This document shows, one piece after another, positions 3,482 to 28,371 of a stretch of DNA of 29,254 bases. The notes under the pieces were generated by a model, which did no database searches, was not told the DNA's origin, and was given only the letters and a program-made list of their open reading frames with translations. Source of the DNA: a virus; IMG/VR virus record IMGVR_UViG_3300035698_000213, positions 1 through 29,254 of that record. The stretch is one strand, 5' to 3'. Numbering within the stretch: position 1 is the first letter of the stretch; each line of letters begins with the position of its first letter. The translations under genes and the position numbers were made by a program.

Positions 3482-3534
3482 TTCCATCAATGATGGAAAA
3501 TATTTTTGAATGGAAAGGGTTGTGTCTATTTTCG
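3482..3534 (+). promoter_or_regulatory. Promoter 1 with 17-bp palindrome, upstream of the tail block
   Basis: A perfect palindrome TTCCATCAATGATGGAA lies at 3482-3498. A TTTTTG -33-like element ends at 3508, and TATTTTCG at 3527-3534 differs by one base from the Bacteroidota -7 consensus TAnnTTTG. Exactly 28 nt separate the TGATGGAA half of the palindrome from the -7 element, as at the other two copies (16576 and 28328). Transcription would start near 3540, giving roughly a 50-nt leader before the sheath gene at 3589. Confidence 0.65.
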
Positions 3535-3588
3535 TGACCACTTTGGAAGTCGGACAATTAGACGCAATGAAATAAAAAAATTCAAGAA

Positions 3589-5103
3589 ATGAGTGACGCC
3601 GTTGGTTTAGAAAGAATATCCAAAATTGTTGGATATAAAATAGTTAAGGCGAATTTTTCAAACAACACGCCAAATTTGCCACAACGCATTGCCATTCTTG
3701 GTGAAGCGAACAATGCAAATCAATCCGGATTGTCAGTTGTTCCGGAACAAATCACAAGCGCAAAAGAAGCCGGTGACACATATGGTTTTGGTTCACCAAT
3801 TCACATCATGGCGCGGATCCTTTTTCCGATTTCGGGCGGAGGCATTGGCGGCATTCCGGTTTGGATTTATCCACAATTAGAAGCGGCCGGTGCAACTTCA
3901 AAGTCATTTGACGTGACACCGACCGGAACGGCCACCGGCAATGGCACGCATTATTTGAAGATCGCCGGACGTGACAATGTTGATGGTGAATATTATGCCG
4001 TGACAATTGCAGACGGTGACACCACCGCGGACATCACCGCGAAATTGGCGGATGCCGTCAACAATGTGAGTGGATCACCAATGTCCGCGGATGATTTCAC
4101 ATATGAAGTTCGATTGGAATCAAAATGGAATGGATTGACCGCAAACGGTTTGTCCGCATCGGTTGACACAACCGAAGCGTCCGACATTGGAATAACATGG
4201 ACAGTCGAAGATCGCGGTGACGGTGCCGGAACACCATCGATTTCCGCCGCACTGAATTTATTTGGAACGAATTGGAACACGATTGTCATCAATTCATATG
4301 GCGTTCACAACGCCACGTTGGACACATTGGAATCATTCAATGGTGTTGCGGATCCAATCAATCCAACCGGAAGGTATCACGGTGAAATCATGCGTCCATT
4401 CATCGCATTAACCGGAACCACGGAAGATGATCCAAGCGCGGAAACAGAATTGCGCAAAACGGCAATGACAATTGCATTGTGCGTCGCACCGGCGTCAAAC
4501 GGTCTTCCAATGGAAGCGGCCGTGAACGTTGCAAGATTATTTGGAAGAATTGCACAAGACAATCCACATCTTGACATTCAAGATCAACAATATCCGGACA
4601 TGCCGGTTCCATCGGATGGTGACATTGGTTCAATGGCGGCATATGGAAACCGTGATTTGTTTGTTGGCAAAGGTTGTTCAACCGTTGAATTGGTTGCCGG
4701 AAAATATAAAGTTGTGGATTTTGTCACATCATATCATCCGGACGGCGAATTGCCACCGCAATTCAGATATGCAAGAAATTTGAACATCGATTGGAATATT
4801 CGATATAGATATTATTTATTGGAGTTGGCAAACGTGGTTGGAAAAGCCATTGCGAATGACGGTGACACCGTTTCCGCAACCAACGTGATCAAACCAAAGG
4901 GTTGGAAATCTGTTGTGTCAAAATTGGCCGCGGATTTGGCAGATGATGCCGTGATTGCGGATGCCGCATTTATGCAAGATTCAATTGAAGTTTCGATTTC
5001 GGACACCAATCCGGATCGATTGAACACAACATTTTCATATAAAAGAACCGGAACGGCACGGATCAGTTCGACCAATGCAAAAGCCGGTTTTAATTTAGGA
5101 TAA
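3589..5103 (+). CDS. Contractile tail sheath protein (Mu gpL-like)
   Basis: Main sheath subunit that surrounds the tail tube and contracts to drive injection; 504 residues, the usual size. The middle (about 105-215) is a beta-rich, Thr/Asp/Gly-rich outer domain. The C-terminal half carries the polymerising core, with the late segments RNLNIDWNIRYRYY (about 395-408) and the closing beta strand near 480-500 typical of sheath proteins that exchange strands with neighbours. It is followed at once by the tube gene, the near-invariant sheath-tube order of Mu-like myophages. It is the first gene after promoter 1. Confidence 0.87.
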   Translation: MSDAVGLERISKIVGYKIVKANFSNNTPNLPQRIAILGEANNANQSGLSVVPEQITSAKEAGDTYGFGSPIHIMARILFPISGGGIGGIPVWIYPQLEAAGATSKSFDVTPTGTATGNGTHYLKIAGRDNVDGEYYAVTIADGDTTADITAKLADAVNNVSGSPMSADDFTYEVRLESKWNGLTANGLSASVDTTEASDIGITWTVEDRGDGAGTPSISAALNLFGTNWNTIVINSYGVHNATLDTLESFNGVADPINPTGRYHGEIMRPFIALTGTTEDDPSAETELRKTAMTIALCVAPASNGLPMEAAVNVARLFGRIAQDNPHLDIQDQQYPDMPVPSDGDIGSMAAYGNRDLFVGKGCSTVELVAGKYKVVDFVTSYHPDGELPPQFRYARNLNIDWNIRYRYYLLELANVVGKAIANDGDTVSATNVIKPKGWKSVVSKLAADLADDAVIADAAFMQDSIEVSISDTNPDRLNTTFSYKRTGTARISSTNAKAGFNLG

Positions 5104-5119
5104 ACAAAAAACACAAATC

Positions 5120-5524
5120 ATGAACGTTGGCGGCGATATTTTAGAAATTACATGTAATCATCCAACACTTGGATCATTCGTATTTCATCCGGTTGCAAAT
5201 TCGGATTTCAGTTTGGACACCGGTGGCATCCGTGGAAACGATGATGCGGACATGGTGACCGGATCCGGTCAAAACATTAAACAAATGAACAACAAACGTT
5301 GGTCATTTGAAGGTCCGTTGGCGTGGGATGCAAACACACGTGAAGATTTGGAAACATTGGAATCAATGGGTGCGGATGCGGTCGATGGTGATTGGACGTT
5401 TTCATTGGCGAATGGTTCAATTTATCAAGGTTCCGGAAGTCCGGTTGGCGATATTGTTGGCAATACGAACACCGCACAAATTCCGGTCAAATTATCCGGA
5501 GGTGGAAAACTTAAAAAGCAATAA
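5120..5524 (+). CDS. Tail tube protein (Mu gpM-like)
   Basis: Predicted subunit of the inner tail tube, 134 residues. The sequence is beta-rich, opening with a short strand and the segment TCNHPTLGSFVFHPVANSDF, followed by a Gly/Asp-rich loop and the phrase NKRWSFEGPLAWD, a layout seen in tube proteins of contractile tails. It ends in a basic GGGKLKKQ tail. The main support is its size and its place between the sheath and the tail-assembly chaperone. Confidence 0.75.
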   Translation: MNVGGDILEITCNHPTLGSFVFHPVANSDFSLDTGGIRGNDDADMVTGSGQNIKQMNNKRWSFEGPLAWDANTREDLETLESMGADAVDGDWTFSLANGSIYQGSGSPVGDIVGNTNTAQIPVKLSGGGKLKKQ

Positions 5525-5555
5525 ATCAAATATTAATCTTTTAAACCTTTAACAC

Positions 5556-5960
5556 ATGGCCGTTGAAAAAGTGAACGCGAACACCGCGCGAAAGGATATT
5601 GAATCATGGTTGGATTCAAAGAAAATGCGTGCGTCAAGACGTGAAAAACGTGAAGCACAAAGTGAAGATCTAATTGCCGCCGTCCAAGAAGGCGTTTTGG
5701 CATATGATGACAAGACACATGAATTGAATCACACGTTGATCAATCCACCGGAAGATGGATTGGTGAAGGAAATGAAATATAAACACCGCGTCCGTCCAAT
5801 TGACGTGGAACCATATTTGAAAGGAGTTCAACCAACCGATGCAGATGGACGCGTTCGCGCGTGGATCCAAGCGTTGACCGGACAACCAATGAACGTTGTT
5901 CGCAAACTTGACACGGAAGATTATAGTTTGGCACAATCCATTGCCCTTTTTTTCCAATAG
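5556..5960 (+). CDS. Tail-assembly chaperone, short (non-frameshifted) product
   Basis: Predicted chaperone that coats the tape measure during tail assembly, like lambda gpG, P2 gpE and Mu gp41. The unshifted product is 134 residues, highly charged (many Lys, Glu and Arg in the first 45 residues) and ends SIALFFQ. A slippery T TTT TTC heptamer lies five to seven codons from the stop, so part of the ribosomes should shift into the -1 frame and make a longer protein (see 5556-6133). Placement between tube and tape measure fits the family exactly. No sequence-level family match is claimed beyond this organisation. Confidence 0.75.
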   Translation: MAVEKVNANTARKDIESWLDSKKMRASRREKREAQSEDLIAAVQEGVLAYDDKTHELNHTLINPPEDGLVKEMKYKHRVRPIDVEPYLKGVQPTDADGRVRAWIQALTGQPMNVVRKLDTEDYSLAQSIALFFQ

Positions 5961-6133
5961 TCAGTCACACAACGGAAAGCATCGATAACATGATAAAAAG
6001 TGTTATCCGCACTTACAATTGGACACCGGATGTGATTGATCTTCTTTTTTATGATGACATTGATCATCACGGTTTGATATATTGGCACAATGACGCCAAA
6101 GAAATTGAAAAGAAATTAAAAGAAGATAAATAA
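5556..6133 (+). CDS. Tail-assembly chaperone, -1 frameshift fusion (G-GT type)
   Basis: If ribosomes slip back one base on TTTTTTC at 5948-5954, translation continues from 5954 with no stop until TAA at 6131-6133. This adds 59 residues to the first 133, for a 192-residue product. The extension contains the small frame that could otherwise start alone at ATG 5990 (47 residues, MIKSVIRTYNWTPDVIDLLF...). That the -1 frame stays open from the slip site straight into this small ORF, and stops just before the tape-measure start at 6135, is strong support for the lambda G/GT-like arrangement. Confidence 0.72.
5948..6007 (+). promoter_or_regulatory. Programmed -1 frameshift signal: slippery heptamer plus hairpin
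   Basis: In the chaperone frame the bases read CTT TTT TTC, giving the perfect X XXY YYZ heptamer T TTT TTC at 5948-5954. Both tRNAs can re-pair after a one-base backward slip. Downstream, GATAACA (5984-5990) and TGTTATC (6001-6007) form a perfect 7-bp stem with a 10-nt loop. The hairpin begins 29 nt after the heptamer, farther than a classical stimulator, so its role is uncertain. The heptamer itself is convincing. Confidence 0.75.
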
Positions 6134-6134
6134 A

Positions 6135-8063
6135 ATGTCCGCCGCCGGTTTCATCGTTCCAACTACATTCACCGCCGTTGATATGTTCACGCCAAAAGTT
6201 GTCGGCATGACCAACACAACGTCCACGTTTGCCGCAAAAGCATCCGTGAACATCGCGCGTGTTGATCGTGCGTTTACAAGAATGACACCGGCCATTTCTT
6301 CCGGCACACGGCAAATCTTGCAAATGGCAAAAGCGGCCATTGGTATTGGTGCCATCATTGGAACATTCCAATTGGTGACATCATCAATCAAAGATTATGA
6401 ATCCGCACTTGATTCCGCACAAGCCATCACCGGAACATCCAATGCGGAATTTGCATTGTTTCAAACACAAATTGAAGACGTTGCGACATCCACAAAGAAG
6501 TCCGCAATTGATGTGGCCAAAGGTTTTGAAATCGTTGGATCACAACAACCGGAATTGTTGAAGAATGCGGCGGCACTTGGTGTTGTCACCGATGCGGCAA
6601 TAACATTGTCCAAGGCATCACGCGATGATTTGTCCGTTTCCGCGGCATCATTGACCGGTGTGATGAATCAATTTGATCTTGGTGCGGACCAAGCGGCACG
6701 GACCATGAATGTCTTGGCGGCCGGTTCCGTTGTCGGATCTGCAAACATCACACAAGTTGGTGAATCAATGAAAAACTTTGGTGCGGTTGCATCCGGTGCA
6801 AATATCACATTGGAACAATCCGTTGGTTTGGTTGAAACGGTTGGAAAATTTATGTTGGTTGGCGCGGAGGCCGGAACCAAATTGCGTGGATCCGTTTTGA
6901 AATTACAACAAGCCGGATTAGGATATGCCAACGGCCAATTTGAAATCAATTCCGCATTAGAAGAAGCGCGTGCAAAATTTGAAAGTTTAGCCACGGCCAA
7001 ACAAAAAGATGCGTTTTTGTCCAAGACATTTGGATTGGAAAATATATCCACCGGAAAAATATTATTGAACAACATTGGATTGTTCCAAGAATTGACCGCC
7101 GGCGTCACCGGAACGGACACGGCATATGTCCAAGCGGCACAAAACACATCCAATCTTTCAACCAAGTTGGATGAATTGAAGGCACGGTTTGTCAACATCA
7201 TTGTGGCAAGTGACAACACATCCGCCGGATTGGCCGGTGTTTCTGCAATCGTTGTGTTTTTGACGGATAATTTGGACACCGTGATTTCCGTTGGTGTTGC
7301 ATTCATCGGAACATGGTTGGCAATCAAAGCGGTGTTGATGATTTCAAAAGCCGCATTATTTGCATACAATGTCGCACTTGGAATTTCCACCGTGATTCAA
7401 AACAAAAACTTGTTTGCACTTCGCGCCAATGCGATTGCAATGAAAACCGTTGCCATTGCCACCAAAGTCATCACGGCGGCGCAATGGTTATGGAATGCCG
7501 CAATGATGGCGAATCCAATTGGTTTGATCATTCTTGCAATTGCCGCATTGGCCGCCGCAATTTATTTCATTGTGGATGGTTGGAATGAATGGGGTGCATC
7601 CATTGCATTCATTGCGTCAATTCTTGGTGGACCATTCTTGGCGGTGATCATGACCGTTGTTGGAATCATCATGTCGGTCCGAAGGAATTGGCAAATGTTG
7701 ACCGATGCATTCACCAATGGTGGATTTGTTGAAGGGATCAAGGCAATTGGAAAAGTGTTGTTGGATGTGGTGTTGATGCCAATGCAACAAATCATGGAAA
7801 TGATTGCCAAGTTGACCGGCGCAAATTGGGCGGCGGAGTTTGCCAACAACATTGAAGACTTCCGGAAAGATCTTGGATTGAATACAGAAACGGAAGAAAC
7901 CGCATCCGCGGCCAATCCAAAACAAGCCGAACAAGAAGGAATGGCGAACGCCATCAACACGAACAACGCAAATGTGACCATCGACAACAAATCCGGATTG
8001 GATGCATCCACGGATAATGAAGACATTGTGAATATTCACACAACACCATCATTCGCACTTTGA
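6135..8063 (+). CDS. Tail tape measure protein
   Basis: Sets tail length and is ejected with the DNA. It has 642 residues, short for the family; at about 0.15 nm per residue this suggests a tail near 95-100 nm. Residues about 100-350 resemble the TP901-type tape-measure core: helical, Ala-rich, with segments such as FEIVGSQQPELLKNAAALGV and MKNFGAVASGANITLEQSVG. Two hydrophobic zones follow, at about 365-400 and 455-515 (PIGLIILAIAALAAAIYFIV among them), which may help membrane passage. The C-terminus is Asn/Asp-rich and less ordered. It starts two bases after the chaperone fusion stop. Confidence 0.88.
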   Translation: MSAAGFIVPTTFTAVDMFTPKVVGMTNTTSTFAAKASVNIARVDRAFTRMTPAISSGTRQILQMAKAAIGIGAIIGTFQLVTSSIKDYESALDSAQAITGTSNAEFALFQTQIEDVATSTKKSAIDVAKGFEIVGSQQPELLKNAAALGVVTDAAITLSKASRDDLSVSAASLTGVMNQFDLGADQAARTMNVLAAGSVVGSANITQVGESMKNFGAVASGANITLEQSVGLVETVGKFMLVGAEAGTKLRGSVLKLQQAGLGYANGQFEINSALEEARAKFESLATAKQKDAFLSKTFGLENISTGKILLNNIGLFQELTAGVTGTDTAYVQAAQNTSNLSTKLDELKARFVNIIVASDNTSAGLAGVSAIVVFLTDNLDTVISVGVAFIGTWLAIKAVLMISKAALFAYNVALGISTVIQNKNLFALRANAIAMKTVAIATKVITAAQWLWNAAMMANPIGLIILAIAALAAAIYFIVDGWNEWGASIAFIASILGGPFLAVIMTVVGIIMSVRRNWQMLTDAFTNGGFVEGIKAIGKVLLDVVLMPMQQIMEMIAKLTGANWAAEFANNIEDFRKDLGLNTETEETASAANPKQAEQEGMANAINTNNANVTIDNKSGLDASTDNEDIVNIHTTPSFAL

Positions 8064-8064
8064 C

Positions 8065-8523
8065 ATGGATTTGAAATTGAAAGATGAAGGAAACGGCGGT
8101 GAAGTCATATATGAAGATTTTGATTTGACCACAATCTTTGGTCTTGGAAATTTGATTTATTTGGCATTATTCGGTGGCAACAATGGCCATGTCACACCAA
8201 GTGTCCGCGCGAAGAATGATCAAGCGTTTGATTTTTGGGCCAATTCATTTCTTCCGGCCGGACAACAATTCAATTCACGAACGGAACACACCATTTCCAA
8301 TGTCGCATTGAATAGTCAAGGCCGCGCGGAAATCGAAAAGTCCGCCAAAAAAGATCTTGAATTTTTATCCGAATTTGCGGACGTGTCCGTGGTGGTGATC
8401 ATTGAAGATGAAAAAAAATGTTCCATCAATGTCCAAATCGATCAACCGGACAATTTGGAAAATCCAACATTCCGTTTCATTTGGGATGCGTCATCAAGTG
8501 AATTAATATCCGAAGAAATATGA
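8065..8523 (+). CDS. Baseplate protein, Mu gp46-like
   Basis: Small baseplate wedge-associated protein, 152 residues. It begins MDLKLKDEGNGGEVIYEDFDL, reads FGGNNGH and then has the Phe/Trp pair of FDFWANSFLP near 50-60, features I associate with the Mu gp46 family. A helix with SAKKDLEFLSEFADVSVVV follows, and the C-terminal strands read like the gp25-like wedge fold. The next gene, baseplate J (gp47-like), starts inside its stop codon (ATGA at 8520), as in Mu-type phages where gp46 and gp47 are adjacent. Confidence 0.7.
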   Translation: MDLKLKDEGNGGEVIYEDFDLTTIFGLGNLIYLALFGGNNGHVTPSVRAKNDQAFDFWANSFLPAGQQFNSRTEHTISNVALNSQGRAEIEKSAKKDLEFLSEFADVSVVVIIEDEKKCSINVQIDQPDNLENPTFRFIWDASSSELISEEI

Positions 8524-9701
8524 TTTCAATTCCAACTTTATCAACATTAATTTCCGAAGTCAAAACAGACTTGGAAACGCAATATGGATCCAATGTGTCA
8601 ACGTTTGGAAAAGTCTTCTTATATGCCGTCATATTGGTCCAAGCCGGCAAATTGAAGATCATGTATTTGATTCTTGGAAAACTTCAAAAAAATATATTTG
8701 TGGACACCGCGGATCCGGAAGCCACCGGCGGAACATTGGAACGATGGGGAAGAATTAAATTGAACCGGAATCCGTATGCGGCCACAATTGGTGAATATAC
8801 ATTGACCGTCACAAGTTCCGTTTTGCCATTTGCGGCATTCACCATTCCGGCGGAAACGTTATGGCGTGCTAAAGGCACCAATCTTCGAAAGAAATACATC
8901 AATGACAATGACATTGCAATTGTTGCCGCATCACAAAACATCACCATTCGCGCATTGGAAGGTGGTGAAGATTCACGGTTGTTGGTTGGTCGCACATTGC
9001 GTTTGATGCAACCGGTGGAAAATTTAGATAGTGACGGAATAATATATTCCGAAGATGTGATTCCACAAAGTGAAGAAAACATTGAAACATATCGCACCGC
9101 CGTCATTGAGGCATTCAGATTGGAACCACAAGGTGGTGCCGCGTCCGATTATCGGATTTGGTCGGATGACGTTTCCGGAATCGCACAAGTTTATCCATAT
9201 GCAAAACCGGCATCATCCGCGGATGTGATCGTTTATGTGGAGGCCATCGCGGTTGATTCATCGGATGGTTTTGGAACCGCACCAAACACAATGTTGATTG
9301 ATTGTCGCGCGGTGTTTGAACAAGATCCGGACACATCATTGGCGATTGATGAACGTGGCCGCCGTCCACTTGGTGTCTTCATTTTGGATGTTGTTTCCGT
9401 GGATGTCCAACCAATCGTTGTCACGGTTCCATCAAGTGATTTCACAACGTATGAACAAGGTGTGATTCAAACAGCCATGGAAGAAAGGTTGGCAACAATC
9501 CGTCCATTCATTCCGGCGGCGGACATCGCATCCGCACAAGATGATGTTTTGGATGTGAACATTTTGACATCCGTGATTTTGACCGCGTATGCCGGAAGAT
9601 CATTTGGCACCGTCACCATGACCGTGGATGGCGTTCCATTAATCACCAACACATTTGATTCTGGATATATTCCATATTTATCATCAATTTCATTTCCATA
9701 A
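8520..9701 (+). CDS. Baseplate wedge protein J family (Mu gp47-like)
   Basis: Structural baseplate wedge, 393 residues, a typical length for the J family. The N-terminus carries the helix preceding FVDTADPEATGGTLERWGRIKLNRNPYAAT (about 60-90), which is the classic J-family start: a 'not-yet-placed' residue block followed by weights of Gly-Thr-Leu-Glu-Arg-Trp-Gly. The beta-strand core near 95-140 (GEYTLTVTSS... FTIPAETLWRAKG) and the segment ENIETYRTAVIEAFRLEPQGG (about 180-200) are also family-like. It overlaps the gp46-like gene by four bases and is followed after three bases by the gp48-like gene. Confidence 0.85.
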   Translation: MISIPTLSTLISEVKTDLETQYGSNVSTFGKVFLYAVILVQAGKLKIMYLILGKLQKNIFVDTADPEATGGTLERWGRIKLNRNPYAATIGEYTLTVTSSVLPFAAFTIPAETLWRAKGTNLRKKYINDNDIAIVAASQNITIRALEGGEDSRLLVGRTLRLMQPVENLDSDGIIYSEDVIPQSEENIETYRTAVIEAFRLEPQGGAASDYRIWSDDVSGIAQVYPYAKPASSADVIVYVEAIAVDSSDGFGTAPNTMLIDCRAVFEQDPDTSLAIDERGRRPLGVFILDVVSVDVQPIVVTVPSSDFTTYEQGVIQTAMEERLATIRPFIPAADIASAQDDVLDVNILTSVILTAYAGRSFGTVTMTVDGVPLITNTFDSGYIPYLSSISFP

Positions 9702-9704
9702 AAT

Positions 9705-14390: not shown

Positions 14391-14402
14391 ATAAATAAAA
14401 TT

Positions 14403-14708
14403 ATGGGATTATATTTTGATAGTGAAGCCATTTATATTCAAAGCCGGACAACGAAAGCGGCGAAGTTGACGGCCATTGACACGTTGATTGAAACGTTGGA
14501 AGATCTTATGTTGACCGCGGCGGCAACCGGCAATGTTGAAGAATATCAATTGAACGATGGACAAACAACCATCCGGACAAAATATCGTGATCCAATGGCG
14601 ATTGAAGAAACCATTCAATTGTTGGAAAGAAGACGGCAAAGATTATTGAACAATTTAAATTCACGGATCGTTCGTGCGGTCGATGTTAAAAACTTTAAAA
14701 GAAGATAA
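14403..14708 (+). CDS. Head-tail connector, gpW-like
   Basis: Small connector, 101 residues. The pattern of an N-terminal helix (TAIDTLIETLEDLMLTAA), a short turn with TGNVEEYQLNDGQTTIRTKYRD, and a second helix (AIEETIQLLERRRQRLLNNL) resembles lambda gpW, whose beta hairpin lies between two helices. As in lambda, it stands directly before the portal, whose ATG shares the last base of this stop. That combination supports a head-tail joining role. Confidence 0.65.
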   Translation: MGLYFDSEAIYIQSRTTKAAKLTAIDTLIETLEDLMLTAAATGNVEEYQLNDGQTTIRTKYRDPMAIEETIQLLERRRQRLLNNLNSRIVRAVDVKNFKRR

Positions 14709-16348
14709 TGGCAGATTCAAAAAAATTGACATTGGCCGGAAAGATGATTTTCGGCATGGCCCGATTCGCTAATAAAAGACTTGGAATCAATTTGACCACG
14801 GAACCGGTCAAGACACCAACGGTGAAAAATATCTTTGGAAGTGGATCCGCGTTTTCATGGTCATATGATGGTGAAAAAAATCTTGGTGAAATAGGACCGG
14901 CGCGTGATTATTATTTGGATTATGCGATGTTGCGGATCCGTTCGTGGCAAGCGTATTTGGAAAGCGAAATGGCACAAGCGATTTTGAACAAACACAAATT
15001 GTGGATCATCGGAAAGGGTTTGCGATTGCAGAGTGAACCGGATCCAATTGTTTTGAAATCGGAAGGTGTGAATATTTCGGAAGATGAAGTTTCCGATTTG
15101 ACAGAATTGACCGAAGCGCGGTGGAAAGTGTATGCCAAAAACACCATGTCATCATATTCCGGAATGCAGAATTTAAACATGATCGCAAATGATGCATATA
15201 AAAACACAATCATTGGCGGTGACGTTTTAGTGATAATGCATTATATCAACGGCCAAGTGAAGATTCAATTGGTGGATGGAAGTCATGTTGATTCACCATC
15301 ATATGGTGGTTCAATCAATCGCGACAATGGAAACGCATTGCATCACGGTGTTGAAATGGACCAAACCGGAAATCATGTGGCATATCATTTGAATTTTTCC
15401 AATCGCCGGATCCGTGTTGCGGCAATGAACAATGGAATCCGTGTTGCGTTCATGGTGTACGGTTTCAAATATAAATTGGATGATCACCGTGGAATGCCAT
15501 TGGTGGCCGTTGTCTTGGAAACCATGAAGAAGATGGAACGATACAAAGAAGCCACCGTTGGTTCCGCCGAAGAAAGACAGAAAATCGCGATTTATGCGAA
15601 ACACACAAGTCAATCCACCGGCGAATCACCATGGCAAGATCGATTGGCACAAGCCATTGATGCATCCGGTGATGAAGACATTGCCGTTGACATGTCCGGA
15701 ATTGAATTGGCGGACACCGTGGCGGTCTCAACAAATAAACAATTGATCAACATGCCAATTGATTCGGAATTGGGAATGTTGGAATCAAAGAATGAATTAT
15801 ATTTTAAAGAATTTTATGATACAAATTTTGACTATTTGTGCGCGGCATTAGAAACACCACCAAATGTTGCCATGGGAAAATATACGGATTCATTTTCGGC
15901 ATCACGTGCGGCAACTAAAGATTGGGATCACACCGTTGGCATCAAACGTGAAGATTTTTCATTTCAATTTTATCAACGCATTTTTGATTTTTGGTTTCAA
16001 GTGGAGGTTTTGAAAAATAAAATTCAAGCACCAAAATATTTGGAAGCCATACAAGAAATGAATGAAATGTTGGTTGCGGCATATACCACCGCACGTTTCA
16101 CCGGTCCACATTTTCCACATATTGATCCGAAGAAAGAAGCGGATGCGGTTCGTGTTAAATTAGGAACGGCCGGTGCGCATCTTCCATTGATGACACAAGA
16201 AGAAGGTGCGGAGGAATTGGCCGGTGGTGATGGAAAAGTGATCACCAAAAGATTCGGAAAGGAATTGGAAAAAGCGGAGGTGGTTAAAATTCCAACCAAC
16301 GCACCACCACCGGAAGAAGAAGGTGATGGCGATGGTTTGAATGAATGA
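14708..16348 (+). CDS. Portal protein, lambda family
   Basis: Dodecameric DNA channel at the head-tail vertex, 546 residues, normal for the lambda gpB group. Family features include ARDYYLDYAMLRIRSWQAYLES (about 60-80), the segment GGDVLVIMHYINGQVKIQLVDGSHVDSPSYGG near 170-200, MPLVAVVLETMKKMERYKEATVGSAEERQKIAIYAKHTSQ (about 265-300) and the late DYLCAALETPPNVAMGKYTDSFSASRAA (about 375-405). The C-terminus is Glu/Gly-rich (PPPEEEGDGDGLNE). It is convergent with the antisense regulator gene, with only two bases between stop codons. Confidence 0.9.
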   Translation: MADSKKLTLAGKMIFGMARFANKRLGINLTTEPVKTPTVKNIFGSGSAFSWSYDGEKNLGEIGPARDYYLDYAMLRIRSWQAYLESEMAQAILNKHKLWIIGKGLRLQSEPDPIVLKSEGVNISEDEVSDLTELTEARWKVYAKNTMSSYSGMQNLNMIANDAYKNTIIGGDVLVIMHYINGQVKIQLVDGSHVDSPSYGGSINRDNGNALHHGVEMDQTGNHVAYHLNFSNRRIRVAAMNNGIRVAFMVYGFKYKLDDHRGMPLVAVVLETMKKMERYKEATVGSAEERQKIAIYAKHTSQSTGESPWQDRLAQAIDASGDEDIAVDMSGIELADTVAVSTNKQLINMPIDSELGMLESKNELYFKEFYDTNFDYLCAALETPPNVAMGKYTDSFSASRAATKDWDHTVGIKREDFSFQFYQRIFDFWFQVEVLKNKIQAPKYLEAIQEMNEMLVAAYTTARFTGPHFPHIDPKKEADAVRVKLGTAGAHLPLMTQEEGAEELAGGDGKVITKRFGKELEKAEVVKIPTNAPPPEEEGDGDGLNE

Positions 16349-16350
16349 TA

Positions 16351-16545
16351 TTATTCATCATATAAATATGGTGATTTATATCGTTCCGGTTGTGAATCCA
16401 CAAAATCTTTCAACACCGGTTTCAACATCGAAGTCATTGGAATGCCTTTGTGTTTCGATATATTGACAAGTTGATTGTGAAGAATTGGATCCAAGCGCGG
16501 AATGCGAATTTCAACGGCCGGTGATTTTTTTCCATGTTTATCCAT
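16351..16545 (-). CDS. Ribbon-helix-helix DNA-binding protein (Arc/MetJ-like), antisense within the head block
   Basis: Small predicted transcription regulator, 64 residues, and the only minus-strand gene I accept in the window. The pattern is that of a ribbon-helix-helix repressor: a strand AVEIRIP near 10-16, helix 1 about 18-34, a Gly-Ile-Pro turn, and helix 2 about 37-51 (MTSMLKPVLKDFV), preceded by a basic arm (DKHGKK). It lies between the portal and protease genes, transcribed leftward, and its start is 31 bp from the 17-bp palindrome at 16576-16592. The palindrome therefore lies in the divergent region between it and the protease gene. Binding there is inferred. Confidence 0.75.
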   Translation of the reverse strand: MDKHGKKSPAVEIRIPRLDPILHNQLVNISKHKGIPMTSMLKPVLKDFVDSQPERYKSPYLYDE

Positions 16546-16635
16546 TCCATAAAATTATATTTTAAACTATTATGATTCCATCATTGATGGAAATAATTTT
16601 GAACACCGGTTGTCCATATCTATTTTTGAAGCCAT
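16546..16635. promoter_or_regulatory. Divergent intergenic region between the RHH gene and the protease gene
   Basis: This 90-bp, A/T-rich region separates a leftward regulator gene from the rightward protease gene. It holds the second palindrome and promoter 2. Leftward TAnnTTTG-like candidates exist (for example TAATTTTA read on the minus strand just before the regulator start), but none has a clear -33 element, so the regulator's own promoter is not settled. Confidence 0.5.
16576..16628 (+). promoter_or_regulatory. Promoter 2 with 17-bp palindrome, upstream of the head protease
   Basis: TTCCATCATTGATGGAA (16576-16592) is a perfect palindrome around a central T, differing from the first copy (3482) only in that centre. 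TTTTG at 16597-16601, a 19-nt spacer, and TATTTTTG at 16621-16628 give a full match to the Bacteroidota -33/-7 pattern. The -7 element ends seven bases before the protease ATG, so the transcript would be leaderless or nearly so. The palindrome sits just upstream of the -33 element, a position that suits activation better than simple steric blocking. Confidence 0.72.
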
Positions 16636-17655
16636 ATGCCAAAAGCCATATACATATATTCGGACATTCATTCATCCATTGCGGAGGCATTCGCGGAAAA
16701 AATGGATGAATCAAGTGAAGAAGATGTGACCGTTCGTGTCAATTCGGCCGGCGGTGATGTTTTTGCCGGATGGGCAATGATCCAAAAGATTCGTGAACAT
16801 GATTCAATTTCCGCCATTAAGGTTGACGGATGGGCGTGTTCAATGATGGCGTTCGCACTTTTATTTGTGGACCAAGTGGAATGTCATTCCGCATCATCAT
16901 TCATGTTCCATCGTGCGCATGGATATGTTGGAAGCGATGATGATCAAAAAGCATTGGACAACGCCAACAAAGATCTTCGCGCCGCAATGAAGAAAAAATT
17001 GGACGGAAAGAAATTCAAAGAAATCACCGGAATCACAATTGACATGTTGTTTGATGCCGAAGAAAGACGTGACATTTGGTTGACCGCAAAAGAAGCGAAG
17101 GCAATTGGATTGGTTGACAAGATCGTTCCAATGTCCGTTGCCGCAAAAGCGAAGATGGCCGGAATGAATAAAGATGAAATTTTATCAATCGCCGCACAAT
17201 TTGAAGGTGATCCAAAACCAAGTAAAATGACAAAAATCAACATGACAATTGATACGTTGAAAAGCGAACACAAAGAAATTTTTAATGCCGTGGTGGAATC
17301 CACAATTGATGCAGAACGCGACCGCGTGAACGCATTCTTGGCATATATGGAAGCGGATCCGGAATTGGTGGTGAAAGCTATCAAAGAAGGCACACCGATG
17401 TCACAAACCATTGGTGCAGAAATGCAAGTGAAATTGGCCGCCATTGGTAAATTGAAAAAAATTGAAGGTGGAACACCGGAAGGACCAAAAGCCGGTGATA
17501 AAGGAAAAACACCAACACCGGAAGCCGAAGCGAAACCACTTGTCATTGAAACGAAAAATGGAAACGTTTCCATTTCGGCCGAAGACGTAAAAGAACAACG
17601 AACGTCCATTGCGGCCGCCGTTGAATCAGCAAAAGAAGGAATTAAAACAATTTAA
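16636..17655 (+). CDS. ClpP-type head maturation protease with C-terminal scaffold region (lambda C / Nu3-like)
   Basis: Self-cleaving prohead protease, 339 residues. The ClpP-like domain spans about 1-170: opening strand AIYIYSDI, NSAGGDVFAG (36-45) for the oxyanion-side strand, the nucleophile Ser69 in GWACSMMAF, catalytic His92 in FMFHRAHG and a likely acid Asp146 in RRDIWLTAKEAKAIGLVD. Residues about 195-339 are helical and charged, with a Gly/Pro-rich linker, as expected of a scaffold. In-frame ATGs at 17227 and 17242 could start a separate 140-residue scaffold, as lambda Nu3 starts inside C. The start was kept because the first strand is needed for the fold. Confidence 0.87.
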   Translation: MPKAIYIYSDIHSSIAEAFAEKMDESSEEDVTVRVNSAGGDVFAGWAMIQKIREHDSISAIKVDGWACSMMAFALLFVDQVECHSASSFMFHRAHGYVGSDDDQKALDNANKDLRAAMKKKLDGKKFKEITGITIDMLFDAEERRDIWLTAKEAKAIGLVDKIVPMSVAAKAKMAGMNKDEILSIAAQFEGDPKPSKMTKINMTIDTLKSEHKEIFNAVVESTIDAERDRVNAFLAYMEADPELVVKAIKEGTPMSQTIGAEMQVKLAAIGKLKKIEGGTPEGPKAGDKGKTPTPEAEAKPLVIETKNGNVSISAEDVKEQRTSIAAAVESAKEGIKTI

Positions 17656-17658
17656 ATC

Positions 17659-18099: not shown

Positions 18100-18136
18100 G
18101 AATTAAAAAAAAAAGAAAACGAATAAATAAAAAATC

Positions 18137-19210: not shown

Positions 19211-19227
19211 TTGCAAAAAATTAGTTG

Positions 19228-19569: not shown

Positions 19570-19593
19570 TCATTACACGTGAACGAAATGAGA

Positions 19594-19629
19594 AGGCGGC
19601 GGCAAGTTGAAAAACGTGCCGCCGTTTTT
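19594..19629 (+). terminator. Rho-independent terminator after the capsid block
   Basis: CGGCGGCA (19597-19604) and TGCCGCCG (19617-19624) form a perfect 8-bp GC-rich stem with a 12-nt loop; the stem extends a few bases further through G-U and A-U pairs into the following T run (19625-19629). It lies 25 bp after the previous stop and just before the next gene, so it could uncouple high capsid-level transcription from the connector genes. Confidence 0.75.
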
Positions 19630-19641
19630 GATTAAAAAAAA

Positions 19642-20617: not shown

Positions 20618-20638
20618 TAATTATATAATTTTAGAATT

Positions 20639-20956: not shown

Positions 20957-20962
20957 AAATTA

Positions 20963-23695: not shown

Positions 23696-24150
23696 CACGA
23701 ATTATAGTCCAACCAACAAAAGGATTGTTGAAAAAGATCATGGCGATCCGTGAACAATTTGGCCAATTTGAATATTTCAAAACCGATGAAAACGGCGATG
23801 TGGACATGACCGATTTTGGTATTCATGACATCGCAGATGTGGACACAAACGGTGATCTTATCATGGAAACCGTTTCCACGCCATTCATGTATAAAGGCGA
23901 AGCCATGTATCGACAAGACACAACGCCGGTGATGATTGAAAGCAAGACACCAAAGATCATTGCAACCAACAAAGTTTGCGTGATTTATGAAAAAGTGTTT
24001 CGCGGATATGATGGATTATCACAAAAGGAAAAGAATGCAATCATTGCGATCATTGAAACCGGAATATGGATTGGTTTGTTGACAGATCCGGACAATCATG
24101 TGCGTGTTGGATTAAAAAAACAAATGCGTCACAATTCAATTCTTCATTAA
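23692..24150 (+). CDS. Small protein downstream of the fibre, unknown function
   Basis: 152 residues, starting inside the fibre stop (ATGA at 23692). The first part is helical and basic (PTKGLLKKIMAIREQFGQFEYF); the middle has an Asp/Gly-rich acidic turn pair (DENGDVDMTDFGIHDIADVDTNGDL) that recalls calcium-binding loops; the rest is beta-rich with a helix near 115-125. I do not recognise a family. Location suggests a fibre partner or assembly factor. Confidence 0.6.
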   Translation: MTRIIVQPTKGLLKKIMAIREQFGQFEYFKTDENGDVDMTDFGIHDIADVDTNGDLIMETVSTPFMYKGEAMYRQDTTPVMIESKTPKIIATNKVCVIYEKVFRGYDGLSQKEKNAIIAIIETGIWIGLLTDPDNHVRVGLKKQMRHNSILH

Positions 24151-24151
24151 A

Positions 24152-24493
24152 ATGTCACCAACACAATATATCGCAAAACACAACACGTTCATTTCACTTG
24201 GATTGGTGATCACAATAGCGGTTGCCATTTTTTATGCCGGCGTGACAATGGCCACGGTCCAAGCCACGTTGAAAAATCAAAATGAAGATTTGATTGAAAT
24301 CAAAGCGGACACCAAATCCAATGGCGTCAAAATTGAATTGGTTCATGACATGTCGAAGTCACAACATTTTGACATTGAAGAAATCAAAGGTTGGCAAAAG
24401 TCAATCAACGGTCAATTGAACACCAACAAAGAATTGAAAGATGTGATTTTGTCGGACATGAAGGTGATCAAAAATCACATTGAAAAAGAATGA
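24152..24493 (+). CDS. Small single-span membrane protein with coiled coil
   Basis: 113 residues. A hydrophobic segment at about 13-35 (FISLGLVITIAVAIFYAGVTMA) is followed by a charged, helical region (about 40-112) with heptad-like spacing. It is therefore an N-terminally anchored membrane protein. It begins a run of membrane genes leading into the lysis cassette. Its role is unknown; a holin regulator or an inner spanin-like function are options, unproven. Confidence 0.6.
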   Translation: MSPTQYIAKHNTFISLGLVITIAVAIFYAGVTMATVQATLKNQNEDLIEIKADTKSNGVKIELVHDMSKSQHFDIEEIKGWQKSINGQLNTNKELKDVILSDMKVIKNHIEKE

Positions 24494-24786
24494 CCGCGGC
24501 GAAGCAAATTCAAATGGTCAAATGGGTTGCCGGAACATTTGGTGGATCCATCATTGGTTTGGTCATTTGGGGTGCGACATTGACAAGTGAAGTTTCACAA
24601 ATGCGTGGTGAAATGGATGAATTGTGGTCCAACTATAATCACGAATTGAAAGAAAAAGAATTGATGATTTCGGAGTTTGCGAAATTCAAACAACAAATTT
24701 TGGACATGGAAAAAGCCGCGGAAAAAGAAGCGGACAACAACATGATCAAGAAGTTGTTTGAACATCAACAAAAAAATAAAAACTAA
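24490..24786 (+). CDS. Second small single-span membrane protein with coiled coil
   Basis: 98 residues, overlapping the previous stop by four bases. A hydrophobic segment at about 10-32 (VAGTFGGSIIGLVIWGATLT) is followed by a strongly charged coiled-coil region. Layout repeats that of the preceding gene without obvious sequence identity. It stands directly before the holin-like gene, so an accessory role in lysis or in envelope penetration is plausible. No family recognised. Confidence 0.6.
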   Translation: MTAAKQIQMVKWVAGTFGGSIIGLVIWGATLTSEVSQMRGEMDELWSNYNHELKEKELMISEFAKFKQQILDMEKAAEKEADNNMIKKLFEHQQKNKN

Positions 24787-24797
24787 ATTTTCAAATC

Positions 24798-25007
24798 ATG
24801 AATAAATTGAAAAAACTTCCGTCAAATTTTTACAAGCCAACACCGGTCATGGCGCGAAGAATCGGTGACGGATTATTATTGATTTCAACAATGATGACCG
24901 CATACACAATTGGACAAGAAGGCATGGAAACATTGTCATTGATTTTCTTGTTTGTCGGTGCCATTGGAAAATTCGTTTCCAATCTTTTCACCGAATCGGA
25001 AAAATAA
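24798..25007 (+). CDS. Holin-like membrane protein
   Basis: 69 residues with two predicted membrane spans, about 22-40 (IGDGLLLISTMMTAYTIG) and 43-62 (METLSLIFLFVGAIGKFVSN), a basic N-terminus (NKLKKLPSNFYKP) and an acidic end. Small size, two spans and position directly upstream of the endolysin candidate are the usual features of a class II-like holin. Topology is not proven. Confidence 0.65.
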   Translation: MNKLKKLPSNFYKPTPVMARRIGDGLLLISTMMTAYTIGQEGMETLSLIFLFVGAIGKFVSNLFTESEK

Positions 25008-25010
25008 ATT

Positions 25011-25640
25011 ATGCGGAGGTATCGCGATTTTCTTCATCAATATCATGACCAAAAATATTTGACAATGCGAACATATACAGATATGCAATTGATCGACCGT
25101 GTGAAAAACATTGGTGGTCGAATTACACCGGACAAATATTTGATCATTGGCGTTCAATCATTGGCGGATGACTTCAATGTGTTTGATGATAAATTTTATC
25201 TTTTTTTCGGTGGCAAATTCATCATGGTCACATCCGGAACAACCAATGCCGGCAAACATGCGTTGTTGCACTTTGAAACAAAAGGAAATCCGGAAGGCGC
25301 GGCGGTGTTGAAAACAAATGAATTTTATTCCGATGCATACACCAACGGCAAACACCGTGGACGCATGGACGCATTGCGACAAAACGTGCCATTCAAATAT
25401 TTCCGTGATGATGACAAAGATGAAAAGGCGGAGGAAATCGGAAAAGAAATGTCCGGTGTGATTTGGGCCAATTTCCATGGCGTTTCATATGATCCAACAT
25501 CAAATATCGTGAAGGATGAAATCAATGGTTGGTCGTATGCGTGTCAAGTCTGCAATAAAATGACGGATTATCGCGAAATTATCAAGTTGACCAAGGCAAG
25601 TCCATTCAAAATTGATTATGCACTTTTAAAAGAATTTTAA
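25011..25640 (+). CDS. Candidate endolysin with an L,D-transpeptidase-like His...Ser-x-x-Cys motif
   Basis: 209 residues; the start could also be Met19 or Met25 downstream. A beta-rich region contains KFYLFFGGKFIMVTSGTTNAGK (about 61-82) and AAVLKTNEFYSDAYTNGKHRGRMDALRQ (about 97-124), which I recognise as a widespread pattern in Bacteroidota phage lysis genes. The likely active-site region is His156 in FHG, then GWSYACQV at 173-180 with Ser175 and Cys178, resembling the His/Ser/Cys signature of YkuD-type L,D-transpeptidases. No signal peptide or transmembrane segment is visible. It is preceded by a holin-like gene, so I infer peptidoglycan hydrolysis; the reaction is not proven. Confidence 0.6.
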   Translation: MRRYRDFLHQYHDQKYLTMRTYTDMQLIDRVKNIGGRITPDKYLIIGVQSLADDFNVFDDKFYLFFGGKFIMVTSGTTNAGKHALLHFETKGNPEGAAVLKTNEFYSDAYTNGKHRGRMDALRQNVPFKYFRDDDKDEKAEEIGKEMSGVIWANFHGVSYDPTSNIVKDEINGWSYACQVCNKMTDYREIIKLTKASPFKIDYALLKEF

Positions 25641-25641
25641 T

Positions 25642-26013
25642 ATGTCAACGTTGACGGAATATCATGTGTTGATGAAAGTGGCAATTGTGGAGGCAATCGC
25701 CATCATCATCTTGGCGGTCATTTTGTTTTGGCCGGTGGAGGCAATCAACATGGATGAATATGAAGAAGCCAAAAAGAAGGCCGCACACGAACGTTCGTTG
25801 CGTGTCACGATACAAGATGCCAATGAAGCCGAATCAATCAAATGGACCACACAAGAAGCCGAATTGAAGGAAAGAATCAAACAATTGGAATCAAACAAAT
25901 CAACAAACAATGAAGAATTGGAAATTGATGTTGCCATTTTTGATCATGCGGATCTTGATTCCGCAATTATCATTGGCGCAAACCAACAACACATCCGGCC
26001 AAAAGGTTATTGA
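25642..26013 (+). CDS. Inner spanin-like protein (Rz-like)
   Basis: 123 residues. One N-terminal membrane segment (about 12-31, KVAIVEAIAIIILAVILFWP) is followed by a charged helical periplasmic region with heptad character (DEYEEAKKKAAHERSL... TTQEAELKERIKQLESN), as in Rz-type inner spanins. The last third is less helical. It follows the endolysin candidate by one base. Its final 104 bases are shared, in another frame, with the next gene, as in phage Rz/Rz1 pairs. Confidence 0.6.
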   Translation: MSTLTEYHVLMKVAIVEAIAIIILAVILFWPVEAINMDEYEEAKKKAAHERSLRVTIQDANEAESIKWTTQEAELKERIKQLESNKSTNNEELEIDVAIFDHADLDSAIIIGANQQHIRPKGY

Positions 26014-26365
26014 AATCGATGGCGTCCGTGGCGTGTTTCTTCCGGAAGACTTTTATCGTGGATTGATCATTGATCAACGCAAAGGATTCACGCATTTCAC
26101 CAATTGGCAGATCACCGAAATTCAATTGATCAAATGTGATTCATTAATGCATGGCGCGGAGGTTGACCGCGACCGGTTCCGTCAAAACTTTGAATTGGAA
26201 CAAATGGATCTTCAAACACAAATGACATTGAATGAAACATTGGAAGAAACCAATGAAGATCTTGTAAAAGAAAACGGCAAATTGCGGAAAAAGATCCGGT
26301 TGTTGCCATGGTTCGCGGTCGGTGGATTTATTGCCGGCGCAATCGTAGTGGTGGCGGCACGTTGA
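25910..26365 (+). CDS. Overlapping spanin-like protein with signal peptide and C-terminal membrane span
   Basis: 151 residues. Bases 25910-26013 lie within the preceding gene in a different frame. It begins with a Sec signal peptide (MKNWKLMLPFLIMRILIPQL, ending LSLA-Q at 23-24); there is no cysteine at the cleavage site, so it is not an ordinary lipoprotein. The middle, about 85-130, is a charged coiled coil. A C-terminal span at about 131-150 (LLPWFAVGGFIAGAIVVVAA) would anchor it in the inner membrane. The layout resembles a u-spanin except that the outer-membrane lipid anchor is missing. The single Cys is in the middle (LIKCDS). Confidence 0.6.
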   Translation: MKNWKLMLPFLIMRILIPQLSLAQTNNTSGQKVIEIDGVRGVFLPEDFYRGLIIDQRKGFTHFTNWQITEIQLIKCDSLMHGAEVDRDRFRQNFELEQMDLQTQMTLNETLEETNEDLVKENGKLRKKIRLLPWFAVGGFIAGAIVVVAAR

Positions 26366-26373
26366 CAATGTTG

Positions 26374-26437
26374 TGAACATTCAATGAACATTTCCATGTG
26401 ATTTCTTTGTTTATCCGGTCCGGATGGGTTACTTTAG
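26374..26437 (+). promoter_or_regulatory. Promoter with direct and inverted repeats, upstream of the right-hand gene group
   Basis: Two direct copies of TGAACATT (26374-26381 and 26385-26392) are spaced 11 bp apart. TTTG (26406-26409), a 20-nt spacer, and TACTTTAG (26430-26437) resemble -33 and -7 elements, the latter one base from consensus. The perfect palindrome ATCCGGTCCGGAT (26413-26425) lies in the spacer, where a bound repressor would block polymerase. The box seen at the three late promoters is absent. Confidence 0.6.
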
Positions 26438-26463
26438 CAGAGTGAACACAAAAACCCAATATC

Positions 26464-26901
26464 ATGGAAGAAACAAGAATTGAAGAAACGTTGAAATTTG
26501 AAATTAAAAATCACCAAGTGGAGGTTTTCAACGATGGCATCAAGAAAATGGAAGATCAAGTTGATGGATCCATTCAGATGTTGAAAGAAGTGTTGGCGGA
26601 CGCCATCAAAAAAGGTGAAACGCACGGTTGGTTTCCATATGCCAATTTTGAATCATCTATAAAATGGACCATCATTGGTCGCAAATTAGATTTGGAAGAA
26701 TTGAAGAAGCGATGGATGAAAGAAAGCGGTCAAGACAATGCGTTTTCGTATTGGAACAACATCATCATGTGGTGGAACGTCCGCGGACATGTTGAAAATG
26801 GCGTGGAGGCGTCAAAATGCACCGCCACGGATCTTCAAAAGATTTGTTTGTTGTCGGAATTAGGAATTGACATTTTTGGAAATCAAACCGAAGAATCATG
26901 A
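26464..26901 (+). CDS. Unknown protein, helical and charged
   Basis: 145 residues starting with an acidic helix (EETRIEETLKFEIKN) and a long charged helical first half, then Trp-rich segments (HGWFPYANFESSIKWTIIG, SYWNNIIMWWNVRGHVENG). No family recognised. It is the first gene after the promoter at 26374-26437, and the next gene begins in its stop (ATGA at 26898), so they are probably co-translated. Confidence 0.65.
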   Translation: MEETRIEETLKFEIKNHQVEVFNDGIKKMEDQVDGSIQMLKEVLADAIKKGETHGWFPYANFESSIKWTIIGRKLDLEELKKRWMKESGQDNAFSYWNNIIMWWNVRGHVENGVEASKCTATDLQKICLLSELGIDIFGNQTEES

Positions 26902-27395
26902 AAGAAGTTGAAAACGAATTGGTGCGCCATTCGAATCATTTACACATCGCGGTCACGTTGTTGTTTCCGCATGCAAAGTTCATTGAATCCATTGACACAT
27001 CACATGAAGACAATTCAATTCAATTGTGTGATGATTTGGCCGTTCAAATCGGAATCACGGAACAATATTATGTTGTGGTCCAATATGATCGCGATGTGGA
27101 TGATTTTAAGGTGTCACACACGATCTTTGATCCGGCGGAGGTCTTCGCGTTCATCCAAAAAATTGTGATTGGTCACGATCCATTTGTGAAGGTCACCAAC
27201 CAAAGCAACAAAACAATGTTGGATGCGGCGCATTTTGTGGACGCGGAGGCAATGAAACATCCGGACATGACATTTGAAGATCTTTCAATTCATTTTGAAA
27301 TGATGTCCGTGAATGTCTTGGAATCAAAATCCATGTTGTTTCTTGAAATGATGTGGAATTATATTGACAACCATTTTAAATCAAAGAAGATATGA
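26898..27395 (+). CDS. Unknown protein, mixed alpha/beta
   Basis: 165 residues. The N-terminus is basic and rich in His; then two strand-like segments (NSIQLCDDLAVQIGITEQYYVVVQYDRDVDDFKVSH) resemble a small beta sheet; the C-terminal half is helical with a Met-rich stretch. I recognise no family. It overlaps the previous gene by four bases and the following small membrane gene by four bases, so the three likely form one translated unit. Confidence 0.65.
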   Translation: MKEVENELVRHSNHLHIAVTLLFPHAKFIESIDTSHEDNSIQLCDDLAVQIGITEQYYVVVQYDRDVDDFKVSHTIFDPAEVFAFIQKIVIGHDPFVKVTNQSNKTMLDAAHFVDAEAMKHPDMTFEDLSIHFEMMSVNVLESKSMLFLEMMWNYIDNHFKSKKI

Positions 27396-27544
27396 TTTGG
27401 AATTGGTTTGAATTTAGCCGTGCGGAGGTTTGGACCGCGTTGATCATTGGTTTGATCATCGCCGCCATTCTTCATTCCATTGTTCGTGATGGCACCATAT
27501 ATGGAATCCATATGTCAGATATTAAAAAAAAATTAAAAGATTAA
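27392..27544 (+). CDS. 50-residue single-span membrane protein
   Basis: The start ATG at 27392 overlaps the previous stop (ATGA), and TAA lies at 27542-27544. The sequence MIWNWFEFSRAEVWTALIIG opens with Trp and Phe and leads into a membrane segment at about 15-30 (ALIIGLIIAAILHSI), then a basic tail ending DIKKKLKD. The coupled start and the clean N-in-like charge pattern make it a likely real gene despite its size. Function unknown. Confidence 0.55.
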   Translation: MIWNWFEFSRAEVWTALIIGLIIAAILHSIVRDGTIYGIHMSDIKKKLKD

Positions 27545-27694
27545 TCAAGTGGATAAAATTCTAATTTTGCAAACTTCATTTGATGCCACCAAGAAACGGA
27601 TGGCCAAAGTTGGATTCACTTCCGATCTTCCATGTTCGGTTTTTGATGTTCACACCAACTTTGGCCATCTTTTTTGTTTAAAAAATTCAAGGTG
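27545..27694. other. Intergenic stretch with a strong inverted repeat
   Basis: This 150-bp stretch has no convincing protein gene. Two overlapping frames (starts at 27583 and 27600) give only 32 and 31 residues with atypical codons, and both run through the hairpin. A TAnnTTTG element at 27562 and the terminator-like hairpin below are the notable contents. Confidence 0.5.
27599..27675 (+). terminator. Hairpin terminator, possibly the 3' end of a small RNA
   Basis: GATGGCCAAAGTTGG (27599-27613) and CCAACTTTGGCCATC (27655-27669) pair perfectly over 15 bp, enclosing a 41-nt loop, and six T follow at once (27670-27675). The small inner stem CCGA/TCGG lies in the loop. A perfect -7-like element, TAATTTTG at 27562-27569, would start an RNA near 27576 and end here, about 100 nt; no clear -33 element is seen. 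It works as a terminator of the preceding unit or as the end of a small RNA. Confidence 0.6.
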
Positions 27695-27892
27695 ATGCGG
27701 CACAAATGGAACCACACAAGATTCAAAGGCGTCCACGGCGAATATCATATTTCATTCAGCACGTGCGAAAAATGCGGCATCAAACGGAAGACGTGGAGGC
27801 ATCGCGCCACACAATTCCAATGGCCGGATGGAACAATGGTCCATGGATCCACACCAAAATGTGAAATAATAAATCAAAAATCAAAACAATAA
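27695..27892 (+). CDS. Small basic protein with Cys-x-x-Cys motif
   Basis: 65 residues from ATG 27695; an upstream TTG at 27674 would lie in the terminator T run and is not preferred. The sequence MRHKWNHTRFKGVHGEYHIS, Cys24-x-x-Cys27 in CEKCG and a further Cys56 after a Pro-rich loop suggest a metal-binding protein, perhaps with His ligands. It is strongly basic. No family recognised. Confidence 0.55.
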   Translation: MRHKWNHTRFKGVHGEYHISFSTCEKCGIKRKTWRHRATQFQWPDGTMVHGSTPKCEIINQKSKQ

Positions 27893-27894
27893 AA

Positions 27895-28326
27895 ATGGAA
27901 GTAATTAAAAAAGATGAAGATCTAATTGCCAAGAAGACATTCGACGCATATGAAGAAGACGGAAGATCAAAAGATGCGGTATATTATCGCCACAAAGGTT
28001 TGTCAATCCGTGTGAAGGATTTGAAGAAATTGACAAAGGTGTTTGGAAAGTCGGTTGACAAGATCGTTCAATTGGAAGATGATTTGGCACACAACGCACT
28101 TTTGGCCGGTGTGCGATTGCAAGCGATCCGCCAAGGTTTTGTTCCATTGTCACGGAAAGAAGTCCATGATGGCCATTCATTGATCAAATGTGGATCATGT
28201 GGATATTGGGGAACGTCACGGATTTTGTTGGATATTAAAAATGGCAAATATTGTCCAATCTGCCATTCCATCAAGATTGATCCATTTGACGTGGAGGCGG
28301 AAATAAAAAGATTGCAAAAATTCTAA
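27895..28326 (+). CDS. Unknown protein with C-terminal zinc ribbon
   Basis: 143 residues. Residues 1-75 are charged and helical (DLKKLTKVFGKSVDKIVQLEDDLAH). The C-terminal part has two Cys-x-x-Cys pairs, Cys99/Cys102 in CGSCGYWG and Cys120/Cys123 in YCPICHS, the classic zinc-ribbon spacing. A DNA- or RNA-binding role is reasonable; no family is recognised. Three bases separate it from the previous gene. Confidence 0.7.
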   Translation: MEVIKKDEDLIAKKTFDAYEEDGRSKDAVYYRHKGLSIRVKDLKKLTKVFGKSVDKIVQLEDDLAHNALLAGVRLQAIRQGFVPLSRKEVHDGHSLIKCGSCGYWGTSRILLDIKNGKYCPICHSIKIDPFDVEAEIKRLQKF

Positions 28327-28327
28327 A

Positions 28328-28371
28328 TGATGGAACAATTTTCACGTGTTATGAAAAAAAAAATATATTTG
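28328..28371 (+). promoter_or_regulatory. Promoter 3, third copy of the TGATGGAA box
   Basis: TGATGGAA at 28328-28335 is followed, 28 nt later, by TATATTTG at 28364-28371, a perfect match to the Bacteroidota -7 consensus. TTTTC about 20 nt upstream takes the place of the -33 element. The left half of the palindrome is degenerate here. The box-to-(-7) distance is the same as at 3482 and 16576. Transcription would begin near 28376-28380, at the first arm of the leader described next. Confidence 0.65.

Follow-up and report, generated by a model that had tools for sequence, protein, structure and literature searches.

Two operators before the tail and head operons of a putative Bacteroidota myophage, and a probable ribbon-helix-helix regulator of its late promoters

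The 29,254 bases analysed here, called the window, make up an entire IMG/VR record. Terminase genes and a glycosyltransferase-like gene are followed by a tail operon (sheath, tube, tape measure and baseplate genes), and a head operon begins, beyond the portal gene, with a Clp-type maturation protease and continues with a major capsid protein (Table 1). From this gene order, two sites, each made of a perfect 17-bp palindrome and a promoter-like element 3' of it, stand exactly before the tail and the head operon, a link that the preliminary description of this DNA had missed. Beside the second site, a divergent gene encodes a 64-residue protein that is probably a regulator of the ribbon-helix-helix (RHH) type. 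A Bacteroidota host is pointed to by the A-rich start regions devoid of Shine-Dalgarno sequences, by the type of -7 element and by sheath relatives in Flavobacterium and Cellulophaga phages, which the window sheath matches at about 48%. The best explanation of the locus would include a Bacteroidota myophage having the two sites as its late promoters. A Mu-like transposable phage was considered and rejected, the 688-residue gene product being a terminase rather than a transposase.

Table 1. Coordinates of the features discussed (window positions unless a locus, L, is named)
Feature	Position	Strand	Remarks
Terminase, small and large subunits	100-2739
Glycosyltransferase-like gene	2765-3481		Between terminase and tail operon; weak Pfam match
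Operator 1, perfect 17-bp palindrome TTCCATCAATGATGGAA	3482..3498	.	5' of tail operon
Tail-promoter spacer, 28 nt	3499..3526	+	-33-like TTTTTG at 3503-3508
Tail late promoter (putative), -7 element TATTTTCG	3527..3534	+
Tail sheath	3589..5103	+	Opens tail operon; phrog_165 tail sheath, E 8e-80
Sheath, tube, tape measure, baseplate genes			3' of site 1
Portal	14708-16348
RHH protein, 64 aa, probable regulator	16351..16545	-	Divergent from head operon, beside site 2
RHH gene, candidate -7 element TAATTTTA	16550..16557	-	18 nt from operator 2; consensus match only
Operator 2, perfect 17-bp palindrome TTCCATCATTGATGGAA	16576..16592	.	RHH gene on one side, head operon on the other
Head-promoter spacer, 28 nt	16593..16620	+	-33-like TTTTG at 16597-16601
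Head late promoter (putative), -7 element TATTTTTG	16621..16628	+
Clp-type head maturation protease	16636..17655	+	Opens head operon; PF00574, E 2e-17; phrog_94
Major capsid protein E			After head protease
Third site of the preliminary description	28328..28371	+	Not accepted; box in first codons of ORF 28327-28497
Tandem RHH fusion	L126:2571-2915
Tandem RHH fusion	L117:2566-2916
Tandem RHH fusion	L123:14-352
Tandem RHH fusion	L131:2595-2915
Tandem RHH fusion	L174:2249-2557
Tandem RHH fusion	L149:2564-2923		Genome G022
Tandem RHH fusion	L156:2633-2920
Tandem RHH fusion	L130:3-287

At both sites the operator has the form TTCCATCA-W-TGATGGAA and is followed, after 28 nt, by a -7 element of the Bacteroidota type. 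Boxes at 3491-3498 and 16585-16592, each half of a perfect 17-bp palindrome and each separated by 28 nt from a -7 element (3527-3534 and 16621-16628), had been described before, and inspection of the sequence bears this out. The -7 consensus given at the time, TAnnTTTG, is exact at the head promoter and at a proposed third site, but not at the tail promoter, which ends in TTCG (TATTTTCG); accordingly, a scan for TAnnTTTG returns sites 2 and 3 only, and the relaxed TAnnTTYG returns all three. Chance occurrence of the spacing, an objection raised at the outset, was assessed with 300 dinucleotide shuffles: the box-N28-TAnnTTYG arrangement was observed three times in the window and never in the shuffles, and the perfect palindrome-N28-TAnnTTYG twice, against a shuffle mean of 0.003. 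The window has no further copy of the palindrome at zero to two mismatches. The half-site box itself is a frequent word (13 on both strands, 4.6 expected), and TAnnTTYG words number 29, also on both strands. A -33-like TTTTG is found at both promoters; the -33 TTTG of Bacteroidota promoters is non-essential but needed for full activity (PMC2483708). The word ACACCGGT occurs near both promoters, at 3460-3475 upstream of operator 1 and at 16601-16611 inside spacer 2, and is absent at the sites of the nearest relative.

Of the three promoter places proposed earlier, two (3482-3534 and 16576-16628) are retained. The third had been called intergenic, yet it lies in a packed ORF start: the upstream gene stops at 28326, the box forms the first codons (ATG ATG GAA) of ORF 28327-28497, and this ORF overlaps the following gene (28494) by ATGA. 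There is no palindrome there, the 17-mer pairing at just two of eight arm positions by manual count. The expected number of chance pairings at a gap of 28, given 13 boxes and 29 words of the form TAnnTTYG, is about 0.006, which makes the third site nominally rare. It is nevertheless left out of the promoter set, because each of the nine genomes scanned whole (see below) is without a third operator, and it is probably a chance match. The genes on either side have features of their own: the 27895-28326 protein ends in a zinc-ribbon-like CGSC...CPIC pair, partly kept in the nearest relative, for which no family was found, and 28494-28790 encodes a GIY-YIG nuclease domain.

The relatives used for comparison are metagenomic contigs, many of them incomplete. 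The nearest, G001, has a sheath 77% identical to that of the window; TTCCTTCA-W-TGAAGGAA occurs exactly twice in G001, in the positions that correspond to the two window sites, with TATATTCG and TATTTTTG 28 nt further on. Relative to the window palindrome, one arm base and its pairing partner are both changed, and this at both sites. Nine contigs, the window phage included, were scanned end to end; they were picked for having a recognised operator and therefore inform on copy number and spacing rather than on prevalence. Each had exactly two operators, one at a tail and one at a head operon, and no others within two mismatches. The gap between operator and -7-like octamer, facing the sheath or the protease operon, was 28 nt in 18 out of 18 cases; the number of matching positions, out of six, is four or more in 17 of these octamers and five or more in 14.

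The same distance emerged when the operator was not presupposed. Among 19 non-redundant loci with a single-domain RHH gene, the palindromicity of 17-mers 5' of the head -7 element peaks exactly at gap 28 (4.4 of 8 pairs, background 2.4). If the operator is chosen blindly by palindrome alone, the -7 element lies at exactly 28 nt in 14 of 23 loci, and in three at most at any other distance; if it is chosen by symmetry and by sharing between head and tail, the corresponding figures are 14 of 33 sites and at most four. In 17 genomes, blocks shared by the head and tail regions of one phage had a median score of 21, compared to 9 for 272 mismatched pairs, although a convincing shared operator was not found in three of these genomes (G032, G035, G036). 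The joint promoter score was reached by 16 of 38 protease starts linked to an RHH gene, whereas the 451 other ORF starts included 3 that did so; when protease loci having an RHH gene were compared with those lacking one, the difference in this score gave P = 0.06. At -33 spacing, TTG is present in only 6 of 21 head promoters, most of which have a T-rich stretch at spacer positions 5 to 8 in place of the TTTG. The scan of related phages that had been suggested confirms the 28-nt spacing but not the letters: TGATGGAA was rejected as a general motif, the relatives having other letters at the same place.

Operator letters vary from phage to phage, but within most phages they agree from one promoter to the other. 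All that the two operators of G023 have in common is a TTCC...GGAA frame. Operators that are nearly palindromic can face either way (G026, G039). G022, in which the RHH protein is a fused double-domain chain, carries the asymmetric TTCCCCATTGGTTCACA twice in the same orientation. A general rule that a fused RHH goes with an asymmetric operator was rejected, since the fused G018 has a near-palindrome. Over about 80 nt, hardly any difference exists between the tail and head promoter regions of G020 (L068 and L098, 5' of protease and sheath), as might result from a recent copying of one region onto the other.

Could the palindromes be intrinsic terminators that chance to precede promoters? Site 1 is directly 3' of a stop codon and scores as terminator-like, the hairpins reach -7 to -8 kcal/mol, and nine T follow site 1 of G001. 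These hairpins are weak, however, and two of three barely beat shuffled sequences (z = -0.7, -1.6 and -2.2); a terminator has no need for identical letters at two places or for a promoter at 28 nt, and the operators of G022 and G006 are without a stem. We find this explanation hardly credible.

The 64-residue ORF includes VEIRIPRLDPILHNQLVNISKHKGIPMTSMLKPVLKDFVDSQPERY, a putative strand, helix, turn and helix. An RHH gene is conserved 5' of the protease, on the opposite strand and mostly directly adjoining, in 56 of the 78 loci checked, these being the relatives retrieved with a protease alignment. A profile built from 30 members of the family matches VapB12 (E = 4e-4) and ORF56 (E = 6e-4), and one including fused members matches AvtR (E = 0.004); in single-member searches, 10 of 30 relatives match PHROG Arc-like repressors. 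No family member tested passed the Pfam cut-off, and for this reason the short strand-helix-helix chain and the profile relationship lend moderate support to membership of the RHH (Arc/MetJ) DNA-binding family. Structure prediction brings modest evidence for the fold. RHH proteins are dimers in which an antiparallel beta-ribbon is formed between the two chains. The model of the window protein has two confident helices; neither in it nor in that of one fused relative, both modelled as single chains, was a strand seen, and the intramolecular sheet expected in the fused relative is absent from its predicted model. Foldseek neighbours are mostly RHH proteins (CopG, Arc, ORF56, AvtR and RHH antitoxins), with weak E-values of 0.4 or worse. 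In about ten relatives, two RHH domains are fused in tandem in one chain, encoded where other relatives have the single-domain regulator (Table 1).

The proposal of a phage-specific class of promoters with fixed spacing that depend on a bound protein is strongly supported by these data and can be extended to many relatives, but the likely protein, the RHH product of 16351-16545 on the minus strand, had gone unnoticed. The palindrome might instead be bound by a host protein or by another phage protein, as binding by the RHH protein is itself deduced and the half-site is common in the window (13 boxes for 4.6 expected). Against this, with an invariant host protein the operator would stay the same, whereas the operators vary among related phages and match within a phage; the RHH gene adjoins the operator; and the type of RHH strand tracks the type of operator. 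RHH proteins with an E-[hydrophobic]-R strand pair with TCC/GGA half-sites (15/23 compared to 1/15, Fisher P = 0.0005, uncorrected for ancestry). A different binder therefore appears very improbable.

We propose, with a probability of roughly 0.7, that both late promoters are activated by an RHH dimer bound at a constant distance upstream, and that this dimer also represses the gene encoding it. Early in infection, host RNA polymerase would transcribe the divergent RHH gene, and RHH dimers would next bind the 17-bp palindromes. A bound dimer would lie just 5' of the -33 region and be centred 36 bp before the start of the -7 element, that is, at roughly -48; if the -7 element is taken as centred near -7, the operator would span about -57 to -41. 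With face and distance constant throughout, the dimer might contact host RNA polymerase, and the contact would activate transcription of the virion genes, where the -33 element is usually poor. With the operator 0 to 18 bp from the -7 element of the RHH gene, binding would also limit RHH synthesis.

Alternatively, the RHH protein could be a repressor of all three promoters, which would stay silent for as long as the protein is not titrated, degraded or out-replicated. Most RHH proteins, Arc among them, act as repressors, the profile matches here are to Arc-like repressors and antitoxins, and the operator is close to the RHH gene's own promoter; the -33-like TTTTG carried by both window promoters also speaks against an activator. 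On the other hand, a repressor site need not be exactly 28 bp 5' of the -7 element, outside the core promoter, in every phage. The distance does vary on the RHH side (0 to 18, compared to a fixed 28 on the late side), and poor -33 elements are a better fit to activation. Repression of the late promoters seems unlikely to us, and activation is favoured over other effects because the operator holds a fixed upstream position. Fixed face and distance had already been taken to suggest activation; the position supports that reading, and the effect is one that we infer.

Bound phage proteins are known to activate a promoter from just upstream, as do lambda CI at OR, phi29 p4 and Mu C, and two of them, CI and p4, in addition repress an adjacent promoter; all are unrelated to the window system in both protein and promoters. 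Arc and Mnt of phage P22 are, like the window protein, short phage RHH proteins, and Arc-like PHROG matches were obtained in the relatives. Arc binds the core promoter and thereby represses the antirepressor promoter, whereas the window sites lie 5' of two late promoters at a fixed distance. AmrZ of Pseudomonas aeruginosa, an RHH protein that is both activator and repressor (PMC3325190), is a chromosomal bacterial regulator and no phage late-gene switch. From between two promoters, AvtR of Acidianus filamentous virus 6 represses the gene that encodes it and can switch on the neighbouring one (PMC5569661). It is a viral RHH regulator with two RHH motifs per chain, as in the fused relatives, with weak profile and fold matches to the present family; in contrast to the window system, it works with an archaeal virus and polymerase, oligomerises along about 100 nt and has no fixed site at two structural operons. 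The Ogr protein of P2 and Delta of P4 resemble the window regulator in that a small phage protein coordinates late transcription through one shared site before several structural operons (PMC3931495). However, Ogr is a CX2CX22CX4C zinc-finger protein (PMC3931495) and the window protein has no cysteine, hence no such motif; the P2 late promoters carry TGT-N12-ACA, the window a 17-bp TTCCATCA-W-TGATGGAA with a Bacteroidota -7 element; and the window regulator gene is divergent from the head operon. Membership among Ogr-type regulators was therefore rejected, for lack of the cysteines and for the different site. As in activator-dependent late control, one shared site lies at a fixed distance 5' of each structural operon, and the system would be best placed there, as a new variant in using an RHH protein.

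An exact search of IMG/VR with the window palindrome returned 27 contigs, none of which had been retrieved by the sheath, capsid or protease searches; single-sequence searches of IMG/VR with terminase and protease gave no relative. Comparison of the RHH protein with 50,697 phage records by tblastn gave nothing better than E = 1, and no prophage copies or relatives were found in species genomes. Named phages were rejected as carriers: of the Cellulophaga and Flavobacterium phages with related sheaths, the two isolates examined have their genes in a different order, and profile searches revealed no RHH protein in them. No description of late transcription control in Bacteroidota phages was found in the openly accessible papers searched, which include few of the subscription journals. 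We think it fairly probable that RHH late-gene activators form a widespread, hitherto undescribed group in Bacteroidota myophages, with an exact 17-bp operator that drifts with the protein, single-chain fusions and, in G022, an asymmetric form.

For an entire clade, the system supplies a specific candidate regulator with its operator and a defined promoter geometry, and the question of activation can be approached with one gene and one reporter. The natural series of co-varying protein-operator pairs, fused dimers included, gives access to the evolution of RHH specificity, and the system also bears on how an activator contacts the Bacteroidota polymerase. Finally, in 16 of 21 loci a distance of 4 to 8 nt separates the end of the head-promoter -7 element from the start codon of the protease (16621-16638 in the window), and for this reason transcripts of the head operon probably have little or no leader. 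The leader that follows the tail promoter is longer.
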